Shown here in pieces: positions 42,060 through 63,311 of a stretch of DNA of 64,000 nucleotides. Position 1 is the stretch's first letter. Each line of letters begins with the position of its first letter. A model generated the notes under the pieces. It ran no database searches. It saw nothing but the letters and a program-made list of their open reading frames with translations, and was not told the DNA's origin. Both the position numbers and the translations under genes were made by a program. Location of the stretch: the NCBI GenBank assembly GCA_900466005.1, contig UEGQ01000013.1:62001-126000 (forward strand), read 5' to 3'. The stretch comes from Hyphomicrobiales bacterium. Lineage in GTDB: Bacteria; Pseudomonadota; Alphaproteobacteria; Rhizobiales; Rhizobiaceae.

Positions 42060-42603
42060 ATCGGTTTCTCTCCCTAAAACCCGTAGTTTCCCATAGAGCA
42101 AGGGTGAGGATGGTGCAACCGCGGCATCATTAGGCCTCGGCGAAGCAGGGCAGGTGTCCGCTGGGGGTGCCGGCAAGTCGACGGCCGGGGGCATGACTCG
42201 TCCCCAGCCGCACCCGTAGCGCGGTCCTCGCCCGGCAACGGCGTTGATCCTCGTCAAATCGTCCGGAATTCTGGCGATCTATACAGTCTCGGGCCGATAT
42301 GGCACAGTTTGACCCGTGGATCAGGGAATTTGGTAATTGATTAGCGATTGTTGATGTATTGCGGTCGCGGTTTGGTCCGCCCTCGGAAATTTAGACTAAA
42401 GACTAAAGTGGTTTCAGTAATATTCGAGGGGTAACCCTGGCTTGGCGGCCTTTCCCGGGGCCTTGCCGCATGTCGTCGGCCGGCTGCCGGATTGCCAAGG
42501 GTAATGCCCGACGGGTACCGGACTGCGGAGATTCGTTCATACTTGCGCAATCAAATCTTAATTTCTTCTTTATACCGTGCCCGTCGCGGAGGAGGCTCCC
42601 TGG
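42060..42603. other. Divergent intergenic region, TRAP operon / EAL gene
   Basis: 544 bp with no convincing gene on either strand. The left third is GC-rich and untranslated; from about 42270 to 42580 the sequence is AT-richer. It includes a tandem GACTAAAGACTAAA near 42395-42409 and TAATTTCTTCTTTATACC just before the EAL gene. Promoters for both flanking genes must lie here. No RNA family was recognised. Confidence 0.45.
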
Positions 42604-44916
42604 ATGAAGGCTCGAAGTGCAGCTGTGCCGACGGACGTCTATCTGTCCTTCGTCGAGTCCCTGTTCGGCAACCGCCAGACGCTCTTCGTCGGCATGGGCG
42701 CCCACATCCTCACGTATATGGCAGTCTATCTTAAGACGAGGGACTTTTTCTATATCGGCCTGTCGCTCGCCTTCCTCCTCGTCTTCGCCCACCGGATCAG
42801 GCTCTTCGCCCGCTTCAGCAAGGCCGACAAGTCCCTGTGGAGCCGTCAGGTGATCGCTCGCTGGGAGCATCGGTATGTCGTTGGAGCGGCGTCGACGGCA
42901 GCGATCCTGGGCATCGGCTGCGGCTATGCCATACTCTTCTTCGAGGACACCTTCGTGGAACTGGCCTGCGTGGCCGTCACCATGGCTTCCATGGTTTCAG
43001 TGGTAGGACGCAACTACGGATCGCGCCTCGCCGTCAGCCTCCAGACCATGGCCGCCTGCCTGCCGATCATCGTCGCGGCGCTGTTCGCCGACGACCCTTA
43101 CAAGCTGCTGCTGTCGATCATGCTGATCCCCTTCATGCTCACGACACAGTCGATGGCGACCGGCGTGCGTGAGTTTCTCTACGAGAACGTGGTCGCCTCG
43201 CAGGAGATGAAGAAGATCGCCGGCAGTTTCGATACGGCGCTGAACAACATGACGCACGGGCTCCTGATGCTGGATCCCGACAACCGTATCGAGGTCATCA
43301 ACCGCAAGGCCTGCGAACTCCTTCACCTCGGAGACCGCACCCAGCTCAAGAATTGCGATCTCGACGTCGTCCTGCGCTACGGCACGCGCCATGCGTTTGT
43401 CGACGGCTCCATGCCGGGACTGATCCAGAAGCAGCTTTCCCAGCTGACGGACGGGACGATCTCGCGCGCCGTCATGCAGTTCTCCGAGGACATGATCCTC
43501 GAGTTCTCCGCCACGCGCCGGTCGGAAGGCGGCGTGGTGCTCATCTTCGAGGACGTCACCGCAAGGGTGCGTGCCGACCGGCAGATCCTGCACATGGTCC
43601 GCTTTGACGCCCTGACCGGACTTCCCCATCGCAACTACTTTTCCGAACTGGTGAAGGACGAACTCGCCAGGCGCCGGCAGCCGGGCGAAGTGGGCTTCAT
43701 GGTCCTCGACGTGGCGGAGTTGAAGCACGTCAACGACATGCGCGGACATCTCGCCGGCGACCGGCTGCTGGTGGCGATCGCGAACCGTTTGCTGGCGCTT
43801 GCCGGTCGGGAGGCGCTCGTCGGTCATCTCGTCGGGGATCACTTCGCCCTGTTTTTCCCGAACGTCGCGAGGGATACGGACCTCGAGGCGCGAATGCGCA
43901 GCCTCCACGCCGCGGCGAGCGCCGATTACGAGGTCGAGGGAACGACGATGCCGGTATCGTTCAGTGCCGGCTGCGTAATCGTGGACAGTTCCGACCTTCG
44001 GATGGAGGAGTGGCAAATCAAGGCCGATCTGGCGCTTTACGAGTCGAAATCCCGCGGCAAGGGAGTGTTCACGGTCTTTGCGCAGGAGATGGATGCGCGC
44101 TACGTGGAAAGGCAGCGCCTGAAGGCCGATCTCGCGGCGGCGGTGGCTGCCGGCTCCCTCGGCGTCGTCTACCAGCCCATGTACAGGCTCGACGGTTCCC
44201 GCATCGACTGTTGCGAGGCGCTGTCGCGCTGGACCCATCCGGAACGCGGAGCAATTCCGCCCGACGTCTTCATCCATATCGCCGAGGAGATGGGGATCGT
44301 TTCCGACATTACCCGCTTCATGATCGTCCAGGCCTGTCGCGATTGTGTGGCATGGCCGCCGTACATCAGCGTGTCGGTCAATCTTTCCGAGCATGACCTG
44401 CGCAATGAAGCGATCATCCAGATCGTCATGGATGCGCTGAAGGAGACCGGTCTTGCGCCCGAGAGGCTTCATCTCGAAGTCACGGAAGGAAGCCTCGTCG
44501 AGGAAGTGGCCAATGTGCGGCTCATTCTCGAGCAGTTGCGCGCGCAAGGAATCACGATCGCCATCGACGATTTCGGCACTGGTTTCTCGAGCCTCAGCTA
44601 CCTCGATACGCTGCCGGTCGACGTCGTGAAGATCGATCGCTCGTTCGTCCTCGACATTTCCGAGGATGCCCGCCGCTTCCGTCTGCTTCGCGGCATAGTG
44701 ACGATGTCGCGCCAGCTCGACCTCCAGATCGTCATAGAAGGCGTCGAGACGGAGGATCAGCTCGCCCTGCTGCGGAAGTACGAGTGTGCCGATCTGATCC
44801 AAGGCTATGTCTACTCGATGCCGGTCGCCGCGGAAACCATCGGCCTGCTGGCGGAACGCGCCGAGATGACCGCCAGGGCGGCGCCGGGTCTCGGCACTGC
44901 CCACGTCGACAAGTAA
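42604..44916 (+). CDS. Membrane c-di-GMP phosphodiesterase: PAS, degenerate GGDEF, EAL
   Basis: A 770-residue protein. Residues 25-185 hold about five or six membrane helices; a PAS-like domain spans roughly 207-320 (NNMTHGLLMLDPDNRIEVINRKA). The GGDEF domain follows, with the catalytic loop reading VGDHF at 410-414 in place of GG(D/E)EF, so cyclase activity is unlikely. The EAL domain is intact: EAL 538-540, DDFGTG 655-660, KIDRSF and EGVET. It should hydrolyse c-di-GMP in response to a membrane or PAS signal. ATG 42604 follows GGAGGAGG; a GTG at 42577 is less likely. Confidence 0.92.
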   Translation: MKARSAAVPTDVYLSFVESLFGNRQTLFVGMGAHILTYMAVYLKTRDFFYIGLSLAFLLVFAHRIRLFARFSKADKSLWSRQVIARWEHRYVVGAASTAAILGIGCGYAILFFEDTFVELACVAVTMASMVSVVGRNYGSRLAVSLQTMAACLPIIVAALFADDPYKLLLSIMLIPFMLTTQSMATGVREFLYENVVASQEMKKIAGSFDTALNNMTHGLLMLDPDNRIEVINRKACELLHLGDRTQLKNCDLDVVLRYGTRHAFVDGSMPGLIQKQLSQLTDGTISRAVMQFSEDMILEFSATRRSEGGVVLIFEDVTARVRADRQILHMVRFDALTGLPHRNYFSELVKDELARRRQPGEVGFMVLDVAELKHVNDMRGHLAGDRLLVAIANRLLALAGREALVGHLVGDHFALFFPNVARDTDLEARMRSLHAAASADYEVEGTTMPVSFSAGCVIVDSSDLRMEEWQIKADLALYESKSRGKGVFTVFAQEMDARYVERQRLKADLAAAVAAGSLGVVYQPMYRLDGSRIDCCEALSRWTHPERGAIPPDVFIHIAEEMGIVSDITRFMIVQACRDCVAWPPYISVSVNLSEHDLRNEAIIQIVMDALKETGLAPERLHLEVTEGSLVEEVANVRLILEQLRAQGITIAIDDFGTGFSSLSYLDTLPVDVVKIDRSFVLDISEDARRFRLLRGIVTMSRQLDLQIVIEGVETEDQLALLRKYECADLIQGYVYSMPVAAETIGLLAERAEMTARAAPGLGTAHVDK

Positions 44917-44918
44917 GT

Positions 44919-44954
44919 CCTAAAGTATAATCCAGTATAAATTTAGGGGTTTTT
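44919..44954 (+). terminator. Probable terminator after the EAL gene
   Basis: CCTAAA (44919-44924) pairs with TTTAGG (44942-44947), with inner TATA/TATA pairing, followed by GGTTTTT. The stem is AT-rich and the loop moderately long, so termination may be partial. Confidence 0.5.
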
Positions 44955-44994
44955 CGCCTGAGCCGGGGCGCGGCCAACGCCCTCTCGTGTGCTG

Positions 44995-45002
44995 TTAACC
45001 AT
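44995..45002. promoter_or_regulatory. CtrA half-site TTAACCAT
   Basis: An exact match to the CtrA half-site consensus TTAACCAT, 100 bp before the start of the FeeM-like gene and 78 bp before the full site at 45073. Confidence 0.55.
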
Positions 45003-45072
45003 AATTTCCGTTAAATTGCACGCTTTTGTACTGGTGAGACTGTGAAAATCGCAGTCGACTGCTATTCTTTGG

Positions 45073-45088
45073 TTAATGAAACGTTAAC
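45073..45088. promoter_or_regulatory. Full CtrA-type box TTAA-N7-TTAAC
   Basis: TTAATGAAACGTTAAC fits the CtrA binding consensus TTAA-N7-TTAAC exactly. It is embedded in the inverted repeat GGTTAA...TTAACC and ends 14 bp before the FeeM-like start codon. CtrA is the cell-cycle response regulator of alphaproteobacteria. At this position it would probably overlap the promoter or early transcript. Confidence 0.65.
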
Positions 45089-45102
45089 CGAGAGTTTTTC
45101 AG

Positions 45103-45864
45103 ATGAATGTACATGTCTCCGTCGAGGACAGTTTTTCCGGACGACTGATGCAGCTTCTCGACCATGTCGAATACCGGCGGATCGAATGTGCGGAGGATTT
45201 CGGGGAGATCGAACGGTTGCGCTACCGCGCCTACAAGGCGGCCGATGTCTTGCCCGTCGGAGGCGCCAGGCTGCTCGACGACATCGACTTCGATGATCAC
45301 GCCTACGTCTTCGGCGTCTACTACTTCGAAGAGCTGGTGAGCACGATCCGGCTGCACTACGTCACGCCCGATCATCCGGTCTGCCAGTCCTCGGGCGTCT
45401 TTCCGGATGCGATCGACGATTTTCTCGATGCGGGACTGACGCTCATCGACCCGGCACGCTTCGCCGCCGATCCGCAGGTGGCTGCGGAACTCCCCGTCAT
45501 TCCCTACATCACGTTGCGACCAAGCATCGTCGCTGCCGCCTATTTCAAGGCCGATCGGGTGCTGCAGCACGTGCGCCCCGCGCATTCGGCCTTCTACAAG
45601 CGGGTGTTTTACGCGGATACCGTCATCGAGCGGCGCATGACCGAGATCTACGGGCTCGAACTGAACCTTCTCGCGACCGACACGCACAAGACGGGCGCAA
45701 AGCTGCTCAAGCGTTATCCCTTCTTCGATTCCGGCGAGCACGAGCGGCGGCTGATGTTCGCGCGGCACAGCGGGGCCTGCCTGCCGCCGCTCACCATCCG
45801 CCCGTCGGCGCGGCTGGTGGCGGAGGGACACATTCAGGGAGCGGTCAGCGGCGTCCACTTTTGA
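45103..45864 (+). CDS. FeeM/autoinducer-synthase-like N-acyltransferase
   Basis: A 253-residue protein of the GNAT-like fold shared by LuxI-type AHL synthases and FeeM N-acyl amino acid synthases. ERLRYRAYKAADVLP at 37-51 is the LRYRxF-like N-terminal helix, followed by DDIDFDDHAYVFGVYYFEELVSTIRLHYV, which matches the acidic patch and GxxRL-type strand of the family. The C-terminal half (LTIRPSARLV) is extended relative to LuxI. It would transfer an acyl chain from acyl-ACP to an amino acid or amine. It follows the EAL gene but has its own promoter region with CtrA boxes. Confidence 0.78.
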   Translation: MNVHVSVEDSFSGRLMQLLDHVEYRRIECAEDFGEIERLRYRAYKAADVLPVGGARLLDDIDFDDHAYVFGVYYFEELVSTIRLHYVTPDHPVCQSSGVFPDAIDDFLDAGLTLIDPARFAADPQVAAELPVIPYITLRPSIVAAAYFKADRVLQHVRPAHSAFYKRVFYADTVIERRMTEIYGLELNLLATDTHKTGAKLLKRYPFFDSGEHERRLMFARHSGACLPPLTIRPSARLVAEGHIQGAVSGVHF

Positions 45865-46016
45865 CCTGAGCGCCAGTTGCGAGCCGATTGCGCTTCCGCC
45901 GAGCTTGGTATAAGTCGGACGGAAGGGAAGAGCGATGGATCGCGCCGCAGCAACAGCGTTGCCGCAGGACGGTATCATCGACCAGCAATCGCGGCCGCCT
46001 CAAGGGGAGACAGATC

Positions 46017-46241
46017 ATGAGCGAACACCACACCGGACCCGTCGAAACCGGCGCACCGATGAACTATGCCGAACACGAGAAGACCTATGGTCTCTTCATC
46101 GCCGGCGCGAAATACGGCACTGTCGTGCTCGCCGCCCTGATGATCGCGATGGCGGCCGGCTTCTTCACCGCAGGCGGCTTCTTCGGCGGCCTGGTCCTTT
46201 TCGTCGTTCTCACGATCGCCGGCATCTACCTCTTGCGCTGA
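46017..46241 (+). CDS. aa3-type cytochrome c oxidase subunit IV-like protein
   Basis: A 74-residue small membrane protein of the bacterial aa3 oxidase subunit IV family (COX_aa3_IV). A soluble N-terminus with MNYAEHEKTYGLFI is the family hallmark, followed by two hydrophobic stretches (YGTVVLAALMIAMAAGFF and GLVLFVVLTIAGIYLL). In the Paracoccus enzyme this subunit packs against the core without a known catalytic role. AAGGGGAGA precedes the ATG, and a terminator follows. It lies apart from the main oxidase genes, as is common. Confidence 0.87.
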   Translation: MSEHHTGPVETGAPMNYAEHEKTYGLFIAGAKYGTVVLAALMIAMAAGFFTAGGFFGGLVLFVVLTIAGIYLLR

Positions 46242-47929: not shown

Positions 47930-49183
47930 ATGCGCAAGTATTCGGTTTTTGCCGTGGCACGCGAGGCGCTGCGCGGTCACAAGGGCTGGGACGCCCAGTG
48001 GACCTCTCCGGAGCCCCGGTCGTCCTATGATGTGATCATCATCGGCGGCGGCGGCCATGGCCTGGGCGCGGCCTACTATCTCGCCAAGGAACATGGAATC
48101 ACCAACGTCGCCGTGCTCGAGCGCGGCTGGATCGGTGGCGGCAATACCGGGCGCAACACCACGATCATCCGGTCCAACTATCTCTATGAAGAGAGCATGG
48201 ACATCTACGAGCATTCGCTGAAGCTCTGGGAAGGGCTGAGCCAGGATCTCAACTACAACGTCATGTACTCGCCGCGTGGCGTGATGATGCTGTCGCACAA
48301 CATCCACGACATGCAGTCCTTCAAGCGCCATGTGCATGCCAACACTCTCTACGGCATCGACAACGAGTGGCTGACGCCGGAGCAGGCGAAGGCCTATTGC
48401 CCGCCGCTCGACATCTCGAAGACGGCGCGCTACCCGATCAACGGCGCCGCCTTGCAGCGCCGCGGCGGCACGGCGCGTCACGACGCCGTCGCCTGGGGCT
48501 TTGCACGTGCGGCATCCGACCGCGGCGTTCACATCATCCAGAACTGCGAAGTGACCGGCATCCGGCGCGGCCCGAACGGCGAGGTGACGGGGGTCGATAC
48601 GAGCCGCGGCTTCATCGGCGCGAAGAAGATCGGCGTTTCCGCCGCGGGTCATTCCTCGGTCGTCATGGCGATGGCGGGCATCAAGCTTCCGGTCCATTCG
48701 ACGCCGCTGCAGGCGCTCGTTTCCGAACCGATGAAGCCGATCTTCCCCTGCGTCGTCATGTCGAACTCGGTGCATGCCTACATCTCGCAGTCGGACAAGG
48801 GCGAGTTCGTGATCGGCGCCGGCACCGACCAGTACAACTCCTACTCCCAGACCGGCGGCCTGCAGATCATCACCCATACGCTCGACGCCATCTGCGAGCT
48901 CTTCCCGATGTTCCGCCGGGTCAAGATGATGCGCCAGTGGGGTGGTATCACCGACAACACCGCCGACCGTTCGCCGATCCAGAGCGTGACGCCGGTTCCG
49001 AACCTCTTCGTCAACGCCGGCTGGGGAACGGGCGGCTTCAAGGCGACGCCGGGTTCGGCCAATCTCTTCGCGCATCTGATCGCGCGGGGCGAACCGCACC
49101 GTCTCGCCGCCGGCCTGACGCTCGACCGGTTCCGCACCGGCCGTCTGATCGACGAGGCGGCCGCCGCTGCCGTGGCGCACTGA
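47930..49183 (+). CDS. soxB: Sarcosine oxidase beta subunit
   Basis: A 417-residue flavoprotein of heterotetrameric sarcosine oxidase. The FAD-binding motif IIGGGGHGLGAAYYLA is at 37-52, followed by ERGWIGGGNTGRNTTIIRSNY. His184 in RRGGTARHDAVAWG aligns with the histidine that covalently carries FMN in this family. The tetramer oxidises sarcosine to glycine, giving 5,10-methylene-THF and H2O2. It is the first gene of the soxBDAG operon. The gap before soxD is 18 bp. Confidence 0.96.
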   Translation: MRKYSVFAVAREALRGHKGWDAQWTSPEPRSSYDVIIIGGGGHGLGAAYYLAKEHGITNVAVLERGWIGGGNTGRNTTIIRSNYLYEESMDIYEHSLKLWEGLSQDLNYNVMYSPRGVMMLSHNIHDMQSFKRHVHANTLYGIDNEWLTPEQAKAYCPPLDISKTARYPINGAALQRRGGTARHDAVAWGFARAASDRGVHIIQNCEVTGIRRGPNGEVTGVDTSRGFIGAKKIGVSAAGHSSVVMAMAGIKLPVHSTPLQALVSEPMKPIFPCVVMSNSVHAYISQSDKGEFVIGAGTDQYNSYSQTGGLQIITHTLDAICELFPMFRRVKMMRQWGGITDNTADRSPIQSVTPVPNLFVNAGWGTGGFKATPGSANLFAHLIARGEPHRLAAGLTLDRFRTGRLIDEAAAAAVAH

Positions 49184-49201
49184 TACCGAGGACCGCTCAT
49201 C

Positions 49202-49519
49202 ATGCTGCTGATCAAATGCCCCTATTGTGAAGAAGAGCGCTCCGAGCTCGAATTCCGCGGCGCCGGCGAGGCCCACATCGTGCGCCCCGCCAACATCGCC
49301 GAAATCTCCGACGAGGAATTCGCGGACTACTTCTTCCTGCGTGACAACCCGAAGGGCCTCATCTTCGAACGCTGGCGCCACATCCACGGCTGCGGCCGCT
49401 TCTTCAACGCGGTGCGCGATACCGTGAGCGACAAGTTCCTGATGACCTACAAGGCCGGCGAACCGAAACCCGACGTCGCCGCCGTTCTCAACAGCCAAGA
49501 CAAGGGAGCTGCCAAATGA
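49202..49519 (+). CDS. soxD: Sarcosine oxidase delta subunit
   Basis: A 105-residue small subunit. CPYCEEER at 6-13 and HIHGCGRFF in the second half supply the cysteine and histidine ligands of the structural zinc site. The stop overlaps the soxA start by 4 bp (ATGA), implying coupled translation. It is needed for assembly of the tetramer rather than catalysis. Confidence 0.95.
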   Translation: MLLIKCPYCEEERSELEFRGAGEAHIVRPANIAEISDEEFADYFFLRDNPKGLIFERWRHIHGCGRFFNAVRDTVSDKFLMTYKAGEPKPDVAAVLNSQDKGAAK

Positions 49520-52509
49520 GCGGCGCCAACCGTATTCCCGGCAAGGGCCGTCTCACGCCAGCCAGAACCGCGCGCTTCACCATCGACGGCCGAAGCCTGA
49601 CGGCAATCGAGGGCGATACCGTCGCCTCGGCGATGCTCGCCAACGGCATGCATCTCGCCGGCCGGTCGTTCAAGTATCACCGTCCGCGTGGCATCCTGAC
49701 CGCCGGCCCGGAAGAGCCGAACGCGCTGCTCGATGTCAGCCGTGACGCGGCGCGCCGCCAGCCGAACGTGCGTGCGACGGTGCAGGAAGTCTTCGACGGC
49801 ATGAAGATCGGCACCCAGAACCGCTGGCCGAGCCTTGCCTTCGATATCGGCGAGCTCAACGACTTTGCCTCGCCGTTCTTCGCTGCCGGCTTCTACTACA
49901 AGACGTTCATGTGGCCGAAGAGCTTCTGGCATTCGATCTATGAGCCCTTCATCCGCCGCGCCGCCGGTCTCGGGGTCGCGCCGAAGGAGGCCGATCCGGA
50001 TCATTATTCCAGCCGTTACGCCCACTGCGACGTTCTCGTCGTCGGCGGCGGGGCGGCCGGCCTTGCCGCAGCCCTCTCTGCGGCGGAAGCCGGAGCAAAG
50101 GTGATCGTCTGCGACGAGCAGCCGGAAGTCGGTGGTGCCTTCCACTACGACACCGCCGCAACCGTCGACGGTCAGAACGGCTACGACTGGGCGCAGGCCG
50201 TCGCGGCAAAGCTCGCCTCGATGCCGAATGTGCGCCTTCTCACCCGCACCACTGCCTTCGGCTACTACAACCACAATTTCGTGGCGCTGGCCGAGCGCGT
50301 GACCGATCACCTCGCGAAGCCCGCCAAGGGTCTGCCGCGCGAGCGCCTGTGGCAGGTCCGCGCCAAGCGCGTCGTGCTCGCCACCGGCTCGATCGAGCGG
50401 CACATGGTGTTCGCCAACAACGACCGTCCGGGCATCATGCTGGCGGCCGCGGGGCGCACCTATTTGAACCACTTCGGCGTCGCCGTCGGTGCCAAGGTCG
50501 GCGTCTACACCGCCCATGATTCCGCCTACGAGGCCGCATTCGACCTCAAGCGCGCCGGCGTTGCCGTCGTCGCGATCGTCGATTGCCGCGAAAAGCCCGG
50601 CGAAAAGGTGCTGGCGGAAGCCCGTTCGCTCGGCATCGACGTGCTGGTCGGCCACGGCGTCGTGGACACCGCCGGCCGTCTCCGGATCAAGTCGATGACC
50701 GTCCGCCGCAATGGCGTCGGTGCGTCGCGCAAGATCGAGGTCGATGCCCTTCTCGTTTCCGCCGGCTGGACGCCGTCGGTGCATCTGTTCTCGCAGTCGC
50801 GCGGCAAGCTCAAGTTCGATGCCGCGAACGACCGCTTCCTGCCGGATGTCTACGCGCAGGAATGCGTCTCGGTCGGCAGCTGCAACGGCACCGATGATCT
50901 GCAGGCGATCCTCGACGAGGCATCCTCGGCCGGTGCGGCGATGGCCGCGGCGGCAGGTGCTGCCGGGGCAACCGCGGTGCAGTTTTCCGGCAGCAACGCC
51001 TTCGACTGGACAGGCGGCATGATCGGCGCTGCGGAAGGGGCGGGGCCCGACACCACCGTGAAGGCCTTCATCGACTTCCAGCACGACGTCTGTGCCAAGG
51101 ATATCCGCCTTGCGGTGCGCGAGGGCATGCACTCGATCGAGCACATCAAGCGCTTTACCACCAACGGCATGGCGTCCGACCAGGGCAAGCTTTCCAACAT
51201 GCACGGCCTGGCGATCGCCGCCGAAATGCTCGGCAGACCGATCCCGCAGGTGGGCCTCACCACCTTCCGCGCGCCCTATACGCCGGTGACCTTCGGCACG
51301 CTGATCAACCACTCCCGCGGCGATCTCTTCGATCCGACCCGCAAGACGCCGATGCATTTCTTCGAGGCGGCGCAGGGCGCCGAGTTCGAGGACGTCGGTA
51401 ACTGGAAGCGCGCCTGGTACTATCCGCGGGCGGGCGAGGACATGCACCAGGCCGTCAATCGCGAGTGCAAGACGGTTCGTGATGTCGCGGGCGTCTTCGA
51501 TGCCTCCACGCTCGGCAAGATCGAGGTGGTCGGCCCGGATGCCGCGACCTTCCTCAATCTTCTCTACACGAATGCGTGGGACACGCTGAAGCCGGGCAAG
51601 GCCCGCTACGGCATCATGACCCGCGAAGACGGCTTCGTTTATGACGACGGCGTCGTCGGCCGCATCACCGAGGACCGCTTCCACGTCACGACGACGACTG
51701 GCGGCGCGCCGCGTGTCCTCCAGCACATGGAAGACTACCTGCAGACGGAGTTCCCGCACCTCAAGGTCTGGCTCACCTCGACCACCGAACAGTGGGCGGT
51801 GATCGCGGTGCAGGGGCCGAAGGCGCGCGACATCATCGCGCCGTTCGTCGAAGGCATCGACATCTCGAACGAAGCCTTCCCGCACATGAGCGTCGCCGAA
51901 GGCAAGTTCTGCGGCGTGCCGACCCGGCTCTTCCGCGTCTCCTTCACGGGGGAACTCGGCTTCGAAATCAACGTGCCCGCCGATTACGGCGCCTCGGTGC
52001 TGGAAGCCGTCTGGAATCGGGCCGAAAGCATGGAGGCTTGCCTCTACGGCACGGAAACCATGCACGTCCTGCGCGCCGAGAAGGGCTACATCATCGTCGG
52101 TCAGGACACCGACGGGACGCTCACTCCCGACGATGCCGGCCTCGCATGGGCGGTGTCGAAGAAGAAGACGGACTTCGTCGGCATCCGCGGCCTCAAGCGT
52201 CCGGATCTCGTCAAGGATGGCCGCAAGCAACTGGTCGGACTTTTGACGAAGGACCCGAACACGGTGCTGGAGGAAGGCGCCCAGATCGTCGCCGATCCGA
52301 ACCAGCCGAAGCCGATGACCATGCTCGGCCATGTCACCTCCTCCTACTGGTCGCCGAATGCCGGCCGGTCGATCGCGATCGCGATGGTGGCGGGCGGGCG
52401 CAACCGCATGGGTGAAACGCTCTATGTCCCGATGGCGGACAAGACCATCGCCGTCGAAGTGACGGACATGGTGTTCTTTGACAAGGAAGGGGTACGCATC
52501 CATGGCTGA
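49516..52509 (+). CDS. soxA: Sarcosine oxidase alpha subunit
   Basis: A 997-residue subunit with three parts. Residues 1-100 form a ferredoxin-like fold without the iron-sulfur cysteines, as is usual in this family. About 170-490 form an NAD-binding pyridine nucleotide-disulphide oxidoreductase-like domain (VLVVGGGAAGLAAALSAA, 174-191). The C-terminal ~390 residues form a GcvT-like folate-binding domain (RYGIMTREDGFVYDDGVVGRI, FTGELGFEINVP), where tetrahydrofolate captures the formaldehyde. It overlaps soxG by 8 bp. Confidence 0.96.
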   Translation: MSGANRIPGKGRLTPARTARFTIDGRSLTAIEGDTVASAMLANGMHLAGRSFKYHRPRGILTAGPEEPNALLDVSRDAARRQPNVRATVQEVFDGMKIGTQNRWPSLAFDIGELNDFASPFFAAGFYYKTFMWPKSFWHSIYEPFIRRAAGLGVAPKEADPDHYSSRYAHCDVLVVGGGAAGLAAALSAAEAGAKVIVCDEQPEVGGAFHYDTAATVDGQNGYDWAQAVAAKLASMPNVRLLTRTTAFGYYNHNFVALAERVTDHLAKPAKGLPRERLWQVRAKRVVLATGSIERHMVFANNDRPGIMLAAAGRTYLNHFGVAVGAKVGVYTAHDSAYEAAFDLKRAGVAVVAIVDCREKPGEKVLAEARSLGIDVLVGHGVVDTAGRLRIKSMTVRRNGVGASRKIEVDALLVSAGWTPSVHLFSQSRGKLKFDAANDRFLPDVYAQECVSVGSCNGTDDLQAILDEASSAGAAMAAAAGAAGATAVQFSGSNAFDWTGGMIGAAEGAGPDTTVKAFIDFQHDVCAKDIRLAVREGMHSIEHIKRFTTNGMASDQGKLSNMHGLAIAAEMLGRPIPQVGLTTFRAPYTPVTFGTLINHSRGDLFDPTRKTPMHFFEAAQGAEFEDVGNWKRAWYYPRAGEDMHQAVNRECKTVRDVAGVFDASTLGKIEVVGPDAATFLNLLYTNAWDTLKPGKARYGIMTREDGFVYDDGVVGRITEDRFHVTTTTGGAPRVLQHMEDYLQTEFPHLKVWLTSTTEQWAVIAVQGPKARDIIAPFVEGIDISNEAFPHMSVAEGKFCGVPTRLFRVSFTGELGFEINVPADYGASVLEAVWNRAESMEACLYGTETMHVLRAEKGYIIVGQDTDGTLTPDDAGLAWAVSKKKTDFVGIRGLKRPDLVKDGRKQLVGLLTKDPNTVLEEGAQIVADPNQPKPMTMLGHVTSSYWSPNAGRSIAIAMVAGGRNRMGETLYVPMADKTIAVEVTDMVFFDKEGVRIHG

Positions 52510-61097: not shown

Positions 61098-63311
61098 TCA
61101 GTTTTCTGGTTCGAGCATGATGACGGCGAGCGGCGGCAGAGACAGCGAGGCCGCGATCCGCCCATCCGGTCCGCGCTCGGCGGTCACCCTGCCGCCGTTC
61201 CCCTTGCCGCTGCCGCCGTAGATCTCGGCGTCCGTATTCAAGATTTCGCGCCACCTTCCGGCAATCGGCAGCGGCACCAAAAAGCGTTCGTGATAGACCG
61301 GCGTCAGGTTCGAGACGACGGCGACCGGCTTCTCGCCCGGCGCCCTGCGCAGCCAGGCGAAGACGGAGCGGTCCTGATCGTCGGCGATCAGCCATTCGAA
61401 GCCGTCGCCCTCGCAGTCGCGCGCATGTAGCGCCGGCTTGGAACGATAGGTCAGGTTGAGGTCGCGTATGAGCCGGCGCATGCCCTCGTGGAGGGCATAT
61501 TGCAGCAGGTTCCAGTCGAGGGCGCGCTCCTCGCTCCATTCGCTCCACTGGGCGAATTCCTGGCCCATGAAGAGGAGCTTCTTGCCGGGATAGCCCCACA
61601 TGAAGGCGTAGTAGGCGCGCAGGTTGGCGAATTTCTGCCAGTCGTCGCCCGGCATCTTGGCGATCATCGAGCCTTTGCCGTGCACCACCTCGTCGTGGGA
61701 GATGGGCAGCACGAAGTTCTCCGAGAAGGCGTAGAGCAGGCCGAAGGTGATCTCCTGATGGTGGAACCTGCGATGCACCGGATCACGCGAGAAATAGCTC
61801 AGCGTGTCGTGCATGAAGCCCATGTTCCACTTGAAGCCGAAGCCGAGCCCGCCTTCATGCACGGGCTGCGAGACCTTCGGCCAGGATGTGGACTCTTCCG
61901 CGATCGTCATCACTTCCGGATGGCTGCCGTAGAGATGCGTGTTCATCTTCTGGAGGAAGCGCACCGCCTCCAGGTTCTCGCGGCCGCCGTATTCGTTCGG
62001 GATCCACTCACCTTCCTTGCGGGAATAGTCGAGGTAGAGCATCGACGCGACGGCATCGACGCGAAGTCCGTCGAGATGGAATTTCTCCGCCCAGTAGAGG
62101 GCGTTGTTGATGAGATAGGACAGCACCTCGATGCGGCCGAAATTATAGATCGCGGTGTTCCAGTCGGGGTGGAAACCCTTGCGCGGGTCCTCGTGCTCGT
62201 AGAGCGCGGTGCCGTCGAACCAGCGAAGCCCGTGTTCGTCGGTGGGGAAATGGGCGGGCACCCAGTCGAGGATGACGCCGAGCCCCACCTTGTGGCAGCC
62301 GTTGACGAAGCGGGCGAAGCCCTCCGGTTCCCCGAACCGTGCGGTCGGCGCGTAAAGCCCCGTCGTCTGGTATCCCCAGGAAGGGTCGTAGGGATGCTCC
62401 GTGACCGGCAGGAACTCGATATGGGTGAAGCCCATGTCGACGCAGTAGGGGATCAGCCGGTCGGCGAGCTCGTCCCAGCTCAGCAGCCCTCCGTCGTCAC
62501 GCCGTTGCCAGGAGCCCGCATGGACCTCGTATACGCTCATCGGCTGGCGTCGCTTGTCGACGGATGCCCAATGCTTGCGGTGCGGCTCGTCCTCCCAGGT
62601 CTGGTCGAGTTCGGCGGCGGTGATGGAGGCGTTCTTCGGACGCAGTTCCGCCTTTCGGGCATACGGGTCCGCCTTGAGCGGCAGAAGTTCGCCATTCTTG
62701 CCGATGATCTCGAACTTGTAGGCCGATCCGGGCCGGACGTCCGGCGCGAATATCTCCCATATCCCGGTGTCGCGGCGCAACCGCATCACGTGCCGGCGGC
62801 CGTCCCAGTCGTTGAAATCCCCGACCACGGAAACCCGTCGCGCATTCGGCGCCCAGACGGCGAAGTGGAATCCGTCGACCCCCTGATGGCGCATCGGATG
62901 GGCACCCATCTTGTCGAACAGGCGCAGATGCGATCCCTCGCGCAGGAAGTAGTCGTCCATGGGGCCGAGCACCGGCCAGAAGCTATAGGGATCGGTGACC
63001 ATCCATTCGGCATCGCCGCGGGTGGCGCGATAGCGAATGGGCTGGAACGTGGCGATCGAAACGGGGCCGTCAAAAAAGCCCGCCGGATGCAGGCAGGCCA
63101 GAGTTCCGATCGGCGTACCGTCGAGCGCGAAAGCCTCGATCGTCTCCGCCCCCGGCACAAAACAGCGGGCCCGGAAACCGGAGCCCGCGTCGTGTACGCC
63201 GAGAACGGCGAAAGGATCCATGTGTTGCCCGTTGACGATGGCCGCGATGTCGGCGGCGGATGGCTGCTCCGTCTGGCCGGTCTTCCCGGCCTTTTTCGGC
63301 GCTTTCGTCAT
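61098..63311 (-). CDS. glgB: 1,4-alpha-glucan branching enzyme
   Basis: A 737-residue GH13 enzyme forming alpha-1,6 branches. Two N-terminal CBM48-type domains ([12 protein letters not shown], then [29 protein letters not shown]) precede the barrel. [23 protein letters not shown] has the catalytic Asp and [12 protein letters not shown] the catalytic Glu. I use the ATG ending 63311, preceded by TTGGAGAG and overlapping the glgP stop by one base; a TTG four codons upstream is the alternative. The length is normal for GlgB. Confidence 0.96.

Follow-up and report, generated by a model that had tools for sequence, protein, structure and literature searches.

A 64,000-nucleotide stretch of the genome of a Hyphomicrobiales bacterium of the Rhizobiaceae (positions 62,001 to 126,000 of contig UEGQ01000013.1; ‘the window’ below) carries a gene, here called feeM, for a FeeM-type acyltransferase, preceded by CtrA-type boxes and, further upstream, by a gene for a membrane PAS-GGDEF-EAL protein. 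The combination of the boxes with the gene pair points to a lipid or signal module, so far unstudied, that would be linked to the cell cycle. The explanation given somewhat better than even credence here is a CtrA-controlled synthase of N-acyl amino acids or amines that works as a module with a phosphodiesterase of cyclic di-GMP (c-di-GMP). The features concerned, all on the forward strand, are these:

42577 to 44916, forward: partner gene for a membrane PAS-GGDEF-EAL protein of 779 amino acids, a predicted c-di-GMP phosphodiesterase; GTG start, with an ATG at 42604
44917 to 45102, forward: feeM intergenic promoter region of 186 bp, whose counterparts in relatives are rich in TTAA half-sites
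44994 to 45005, forward: distal conserved element GTTAACCATAAT, holding the CtrA half-site TTAACCAT (44995-45002)
45073 to 45088, forward: full CtrA-type box, TTAA-N7-TTAAC, TTAATGAAACGTTAAC, with a single base between its end and the likely ribosome site
45103 to 45864, forward: feeM, for a FeeM-subfamily GNAT-fold acyltransferase of 253 amino acids (PF21926), with an ATG start
45448 to 45450, forward: codon for Asp116, in a DPxRF motif, at an alignment position where TofI and three outgroup FeeM-like proteins have Glu

That the feeM product is a FeeM-type acyltransferase is supported by family assignment and predicted fold. The open reading frame (ORF), with GAGAG at 45090-45094 as likely ribosome site ahead of its ATG, encodes the 253-residue GNAT-fold protein of the original prediction, complete with LRYRAY (residues 39-44) and STIRL (residues 80-84), and in a Pfam scan its product scores 126.6 bits against PF21926 (FeeM), where the curated cut-off is 27. 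An AlphaFold2 model built from a 26-row alignment has a mean predicted local distance difference test score of 89.4. With this model Foldseek returns 2g0b (FeeM) chains at ranks 1-6, and the top VIA-align entry is again FeeM 2g0b (Z 18.4, root-mean-square deviation 2.6 over 178 residues), the runner-up having a Z of 14.5 and the N-acylhomoserine lactone (AHL) synthases lying at 12.5 to 14.5, so that the comparison earlier proposed, of a predicted structure with FeeM and LuxI types, comes out on the FeeM side. It was the fold search only, and not the PDB sequence searches, that reached the FeeM structure: the protein and the profile A1 both found TofI best (E 0.17 and E 0.096, respectively), and an outgroup FeeM-like protein found MesI at E 0.0094. 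The window's protein keeps the Arg and Asp residues that FeeM has in common with AHL synthases, but it is only about 14% identical to 2g0b in the structural alignment and has extra N- and C-terminal parts. In the 5.01 Mb genome it is the single FeeM match at E 0.001 or better, and its nearest named relative, 98% identical, is from Ciceribacter lividus, which makes Ciceribacter the probable genus of the window. The enzyme probably makes fatty-acyl amino acids.

Other assignments were considered and set aside. With Pfam matches taken up to E 1, the feeM product yields FeeM and one sub-threshold helix-turn-helix match and nothing else; the autoinducer synthase family is absent there, and NCBIfam lists none. 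PF13444, which we take to be the OlsB-type acetyltransferase family (ornithine lipid acyltransferase), is likewise not matched at E up to 1. The Pfam scan gave no PilZ match, which rules out a fusion of N-acyl amino acid synthase (NAS) with PilZ, and the genome has no match to exosortase PF09721 at E 0.001, which rules out a PEP-CTERM/exosortase-linked N-acyl amino acid synthase and sets the locus apart from the FeeM system. With the LuxI-type AHL synthases (TofI 3p2f, EsaI, LasI) the protein has in common the fold superfamily and a weak alignment spanning the acid and Arg positions; it is unlike them in its Pfam result, in having Asp for Glu and in its neighbourhood, there being no LuxR among the five other proteins scanned near feeM (not every neighbour was scanned). 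A LuxI/LuxR quorum pair was rejected on the Pfam result together with that scan, in keeping with the earlier view that this is no classic quorum-sensing pair.

The full box TTAA-N7-TTAAC stands at 45073, as had been noticed; TTAATGAAACGTTAAC is the sole TTAAN7TTAAC place in the window (45072-45087 when read on the minus strand), and 100 dinucleotide shuffles of the window gave a mean of 0.01 matches, none reaching 2. The half-site TTAACCAT, also noticed earlier, is present at 44995-45002 but is near chance in the window, at least one copy arising in 24 of 100 shuffles. Because of that frequency, and of its occurrence downstream of feeM in relatives, it was dropped as stand-alone evidence, and its conservation in relatives is the sole ground on which it carries weight. 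Genome-wide TTAAN7TTAAC has 28 strand matches, which fall on 19 distinct places, and its reversed-pattern control has 6; for TTAACCAT there are 36 matches against 22 for its control. Seven of the 19 full sites have TTAACCAT within 150 bp, but in several the half-site overlaps the full box itself, and this last count was left unused. The genes beside 18 genomic full-box loci were read and ten proteins there scanned, yielding GcrA, DUF1465 (which we take to be the RcdA family), MinC, FtsK_4TM, flagellin, two YkuD proteins, Peptidase_C93, a PAS protein and one protein with a sub-threshold methyltransferase match. According to excerpts of a study of Sinorhizobium meliloti (PMC4433202), minCD is directly repressed by CtrA there, flaA is a direct CtrA target, and rcdA is CtrA-bound with its expression unaffected. 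The present genome has ctrA itself (96% to a CtrA query), and a copy of TTAACCAT precedes that gene by about 90 bp. Judged from sequence, the boxes upstream of feeM are likely binding sites for this cell-cycle regulator; as the full box lies right next to the likely ribosome site, repression there would be just as likely as activation. As an observation in its own right, two L,D-transpeptidase (YkuD) genes of this genome, at loci L088 and L111, adjoin full CtrA-type boxes.

Among relatives, a close set of 41 loci (L003-L043; 200 bp upstream of feeM; 20 shuffles) was compared with the upstream regions of five neighbour genes in the same loci (n=145). TTAA-N7-TTAA is present upstream of feeM in 28/41 versus 0/145 control regions, with 34 matches in all versus a shuffle mean of 0.7, and TTAACC or GGTTAA is found in 41/41 versus 0/145 (shuffle mean 6.3 sequences); N8 spacing is found in 0/41. 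A GTTAACC(A/T)TAA-like distal element occurs in nearly all rows listed of the upstream alignment, into which the L003 gap was entered too short. (L003 itself, JAIBEK010000018.1, is a metagenome-assembled contig labelled ‘Arenimonas sp.’ whose genes are ordered as in Rhizobiaceae and whose FeeM is 81% identical; it is probably mislabelled or from a mixed bin.) Order-wide, with 85 loci examined upstream and 84 downstream (the 200 bp after feeM; L113, L114 and L200-L202 dropped), N7 spacing is present upstream in 51/85, with N6 in 11, N8 in 1, N5 in 1 and N9 in 2, and the downstream control gives 0/84 for each of these five spacings. TTAACC or GGTTAA is upstream in 72/85 and TTAACCAT in 17. Such counts support the CtrA-type boxes as genuine, and as kept by the majority of relatives throughout the order.

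The partner gene, which like a Glu-to-Asp change at the likely catalytic acid had gone unmentioned in the original prediction, precedes feeM in the same orientation in 41/41 close loci and in 11/11 further strong homologues (33-59% FeeM identity); a twelfth further locus, with a weak FeeM match, has no partner gene. Order-wide (a set overlapping that of the further homologues by three genomes), it is co-directional in 81 of 90 fetched loci, i.e. 81/87 strong FeeM loci, and two more strong loci have a divergent pair with N7 boxes in the gap, bringing adjacency to 83/87. Of the remaining strong loci, two have the sensor elsewhere on the same contig; two genomes with strong FeeM gave no full-length sensor match, and the three weak FeeM-like loci have no partner gene. 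One of the 88 strong order-level FeeM matches (G417) was unfetched, and a separate search puts its sensor alongside on the same strand. The window's own genome (L114) is included in the order-wide pairing set and in the EAL alignment discussed below. On three Rhizobium plasmids, from R. tumorigenes and R. rhododendri, the pair is convergent. Adjacency in three orientations points to function, and not to inherited order alone. In 397 genomes of the order, both searches being taken as covering the same ones, a full-length sensor (about E 1e-44 or better among the matches listed) accompanies strong FeeM (E 1e-50) in 85/87 versus 23/310 of those without it (Fisher p 3e-62, relatedness ignored). 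From 20 close genomes listed as having no FeeM, 13 were tested, and 11 of these are also without a full-length sensor; in the other two (L203, L204) the sensor is followed by the small ORF that in the window lies downstream of feeM. That ORF, 46016-46241, has no Pfam or NCBIfam match and looks like an aa3-type oxidase subunit IV.

In the partner protein, Pfam places PAS_7 at residues 222-334, GGDEF at 343-495 and EAL at 518-749, and its model has N-terminal hydrophobic helices ahead of the PAS domain. Each of the EAL catalytic residues tested is invariant in 82/82 aligned rows (the window's protein being counted twice). The window's GGDEF motif is degenerate, VGDHF, and position 4 in the same 82 rows is Glu in 75 and Gln in 5, the two rows of the window's protein having His. 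With the EAL residues invariant while GGDEF position 4 varies, phosphodiesterase activity appears to be the common denominator, and the protein probably breaks down c-di-GMP. Within 200 bp upstream of its gene no CtrA box is present in 41/41 close loci.

The proposed sequence of events would then be that the FeeM-type enzyme transfers a long-chain acyl group, probably supplied by acyl carrier protein (acyl-ACP), onto the amino group of an amino acid or amine, forming one module with the neighbouring membrane protein, which would lower c-di-GMP. Transcription of feeM would be under CtrA via the boxes, full and half, that lie in the 186-bp gap, the phosphodiesterase gene would not be directly CtrA-controlled, and the product would be formed in step with the cell cycle or the motile program. 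Family, predicted fold, the boxes with their conservation, the gene pairing and the EAL residues are observed; from these we infer the use of acyl-ACP, what the product is, that CtrA binds and with which sign, the hydrolysis of c-di-GMP and the functional coupling. The cell-cycle-timed acyl-amino-acid signal or lipid synthase originally envisaged holds up as regards the FeeM-type acyltransferase and the conserved CtrA-type boxes, its timing and product keeping the conditional standing just given.

The nearest working analogy for the pair would be RpfF/RpfR, in which, by the excerpts of PMC6361424, the gene of an acyl-ACP-using synthase likewise lies beside a PAS-GGDEF-EAL gene, and Burkholderia diffusible signal factor (BDSF) triggers the phosphodiesterase of the PAS-GGDEF-EAL receptor RpfR. 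As described in that source, however, RpfR has an N-terminal FI domain, where the window's sensor begins with hydrophobic helices; the excerpts mention no membrane part for RpfR; and rpfF and rpfR are convergent, where pairs of the window's type are mostly co-directional. A further difference is that the synthase here belongs to PF21926 and RpfF to another enzyme class. RpfF has the crotonase fold. Since synthase family, missing FI domain and membrane part all differ, the window's pair is not a member of the RpfF/RpfR group. Also akin, from the portion of PMC4897644 drawn on here, are the NAS-PilZ fusions Nas343/Nas354, in which a FeeM-type domain is tied to c-di-GMP; in the window the PAS-GGDEF-EAL protein has a gene of its own, and there is no PilZ match. 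These fusions were the only earlier c-di-GMP link found in the open-licence literature.

Several observations weigh against the module, its enzyme and its boxes as read here. In the close set N6 spacing occurs in 10/41, exceeding its shuffle mean of 0.7, and the full box shifts in position by lineage, from about -30 from the start in the window to about -85 to -90 in many Rhizobium. Order-wide, TTAACC or GGTTAA is also present downstream of feeM in 16/84 and TTAACCAT in 12/84, making half-sites less specific than the full box, and in 10/85 loci both TTAACC and a full box are missing upstream, so that the conservation in orthologues earlier looked for holds in most loci but not in all nor at a fixed place. 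The loci compared are related, and the box counts are not independent samples. Strong FeeM is absent in 23 of the 108 sensor-bearing genomes. Two Sulfitobacter (Rhodobacterales) plasmid relatives (L210, L211; scoring 176 and 163 bits against profile A1) have the Asp (DPTRF) with no box in the 200 bp upstream and no GGDEF-EAL neighbour. At position 116, the likely catalytic acid, 137 of 140 unique relatives have Asp in place of Glu, two Cys and one Asn.

As for that acid, the excerpts of PMC4897644 give FeeM Glu95 as the proposed catalytic residue, and Nas354 Glu103 as one whose change to Ala abolishes activity. Glu occupies the position in 3/3 outgroup FeeM-like proteins, unlike the window's protein, and in TofI, where the alignment is weak; Asp is there in 7/7 plasmid homologues. 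As the alignment has it, the Glu-to-Asp change would be one by which the carboxylate is retained but shortened. Around it Arg40, Arg83, His161 and Tyr165 are invariant across the 140, with Asp59 and Arg119 each kept in 139. In L136 and L138 (Cys116) and L154 (Asn116, with Met at the Arg119 position) the acid is lost, and these may be inactive or altered enzymes.

Among other explanations, that the boxes serve another TTAA-binding regulator or are mere AT-rich promoter sequence is rated very improbable: the near-chance half-site in the window, and its presence downstream of feeM in some relatives, would fit it, but N7 is strongly preferred over N5, N6, N8 and N9, full boxes are missing from the control upstream regions and outnumber shuffles as given above, and the genomic sites adjoin known CtrA targets. 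The downstream copies of TTAACCAT, which lie 100 to 190 bp after feeM in L125, L132, L135, L141, L142, L149, L152, L156, L157, L158, L166 and L175, may belong to the next gene, as its own CtrA-type site.

The remaining alternatives concern what the product is for. A membrane lipid or surfactant synthase, with a structural or surface-active product made in the motile phase together with flagellin and a phosphodiesterase that merely shares the physiology, is a possible account, if on the unlikely side. The FeeM-type Nas354 yields surface-active N-acyltyrosine in E. coli (PMC4897644, in the portion drawn on), and CtrA-type boxes are common to flagellin, minC and YkuD genes. However, the tight pairing with one particular sensor exceeds what shared timing would need, and no O-acyltransferase is among the five neighbours scanned (others being unscanned). 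Slightly less probable is that the N-acyl product is the ligand of the membrane or PAS part of the phosphodiesterase, so that its build-up would alter c-di-GMP, as BDSF does via RpfF/RpfR. Persistence of adjacency in three orientations would suit such a relationship, as would the precedent of RpfF/RpfR, and the sensor's N-terminal region aligns end to end across distant pair members, where the five other sensor matches in the genome start at residue 224 or later. Against it stand the sensor-bearing genomes with no strong FeeM, and the partner's PAS model, which resembles many generic PAS domains, DosP included, and so gives no pointer to a ligand. That the locus codes for a synthase and its receptor in a pairing that involves no LuxR and no RpfF is graded by us as quite unlikely, and the CtrA-controlled module, in which synthase and phosphodiesterase would work together, is preferred.

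In a class-level sample 3/387 genomes match FeeM at E 1e-20, every one belonging to this order and the window's genome among them. The Sulfitobacter proteins show, however, that members of the subfamily do occur beyond the order. Those two lie between genes for a methyltransferase and a HAMP histidine kinase, which may be a synthase-sensor pairing of another sort. The homologue on Rhizobium leguminosarum pRlX5 has no GGDEF-EAL gene in the fetched 9.7 kb, and in a Shinella record the two genes are paired co-directionally, as usual. Elsewhere in the window, 47930-52509 holds sarcosine oxidase-type genes (DAO-family oxidoreductase, SoxD), the long ORF at 49516-52509 looking like a sarcosine oxidase alpha subunit.

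A search of the open-licence literature found no description of the FeeM/PAS-GGDEF-EAL pair, nothing on FeeM with diguanylate cyclase or N-acyl amino acid synthase with GGDEF, and nothing linking CtrA and cyclic di-GMP with an acyltransferase in rhizobia. What N-acyl amino acid synthases do physiologically was described as unclear in 2016 (PMC4897644, as excerpted). The conserved pairing and the CtrA boxes provide a concrete, testable setting for that role in cultured Rhizobiaceae, and the pair may supply the cell cycle with a chemical input.
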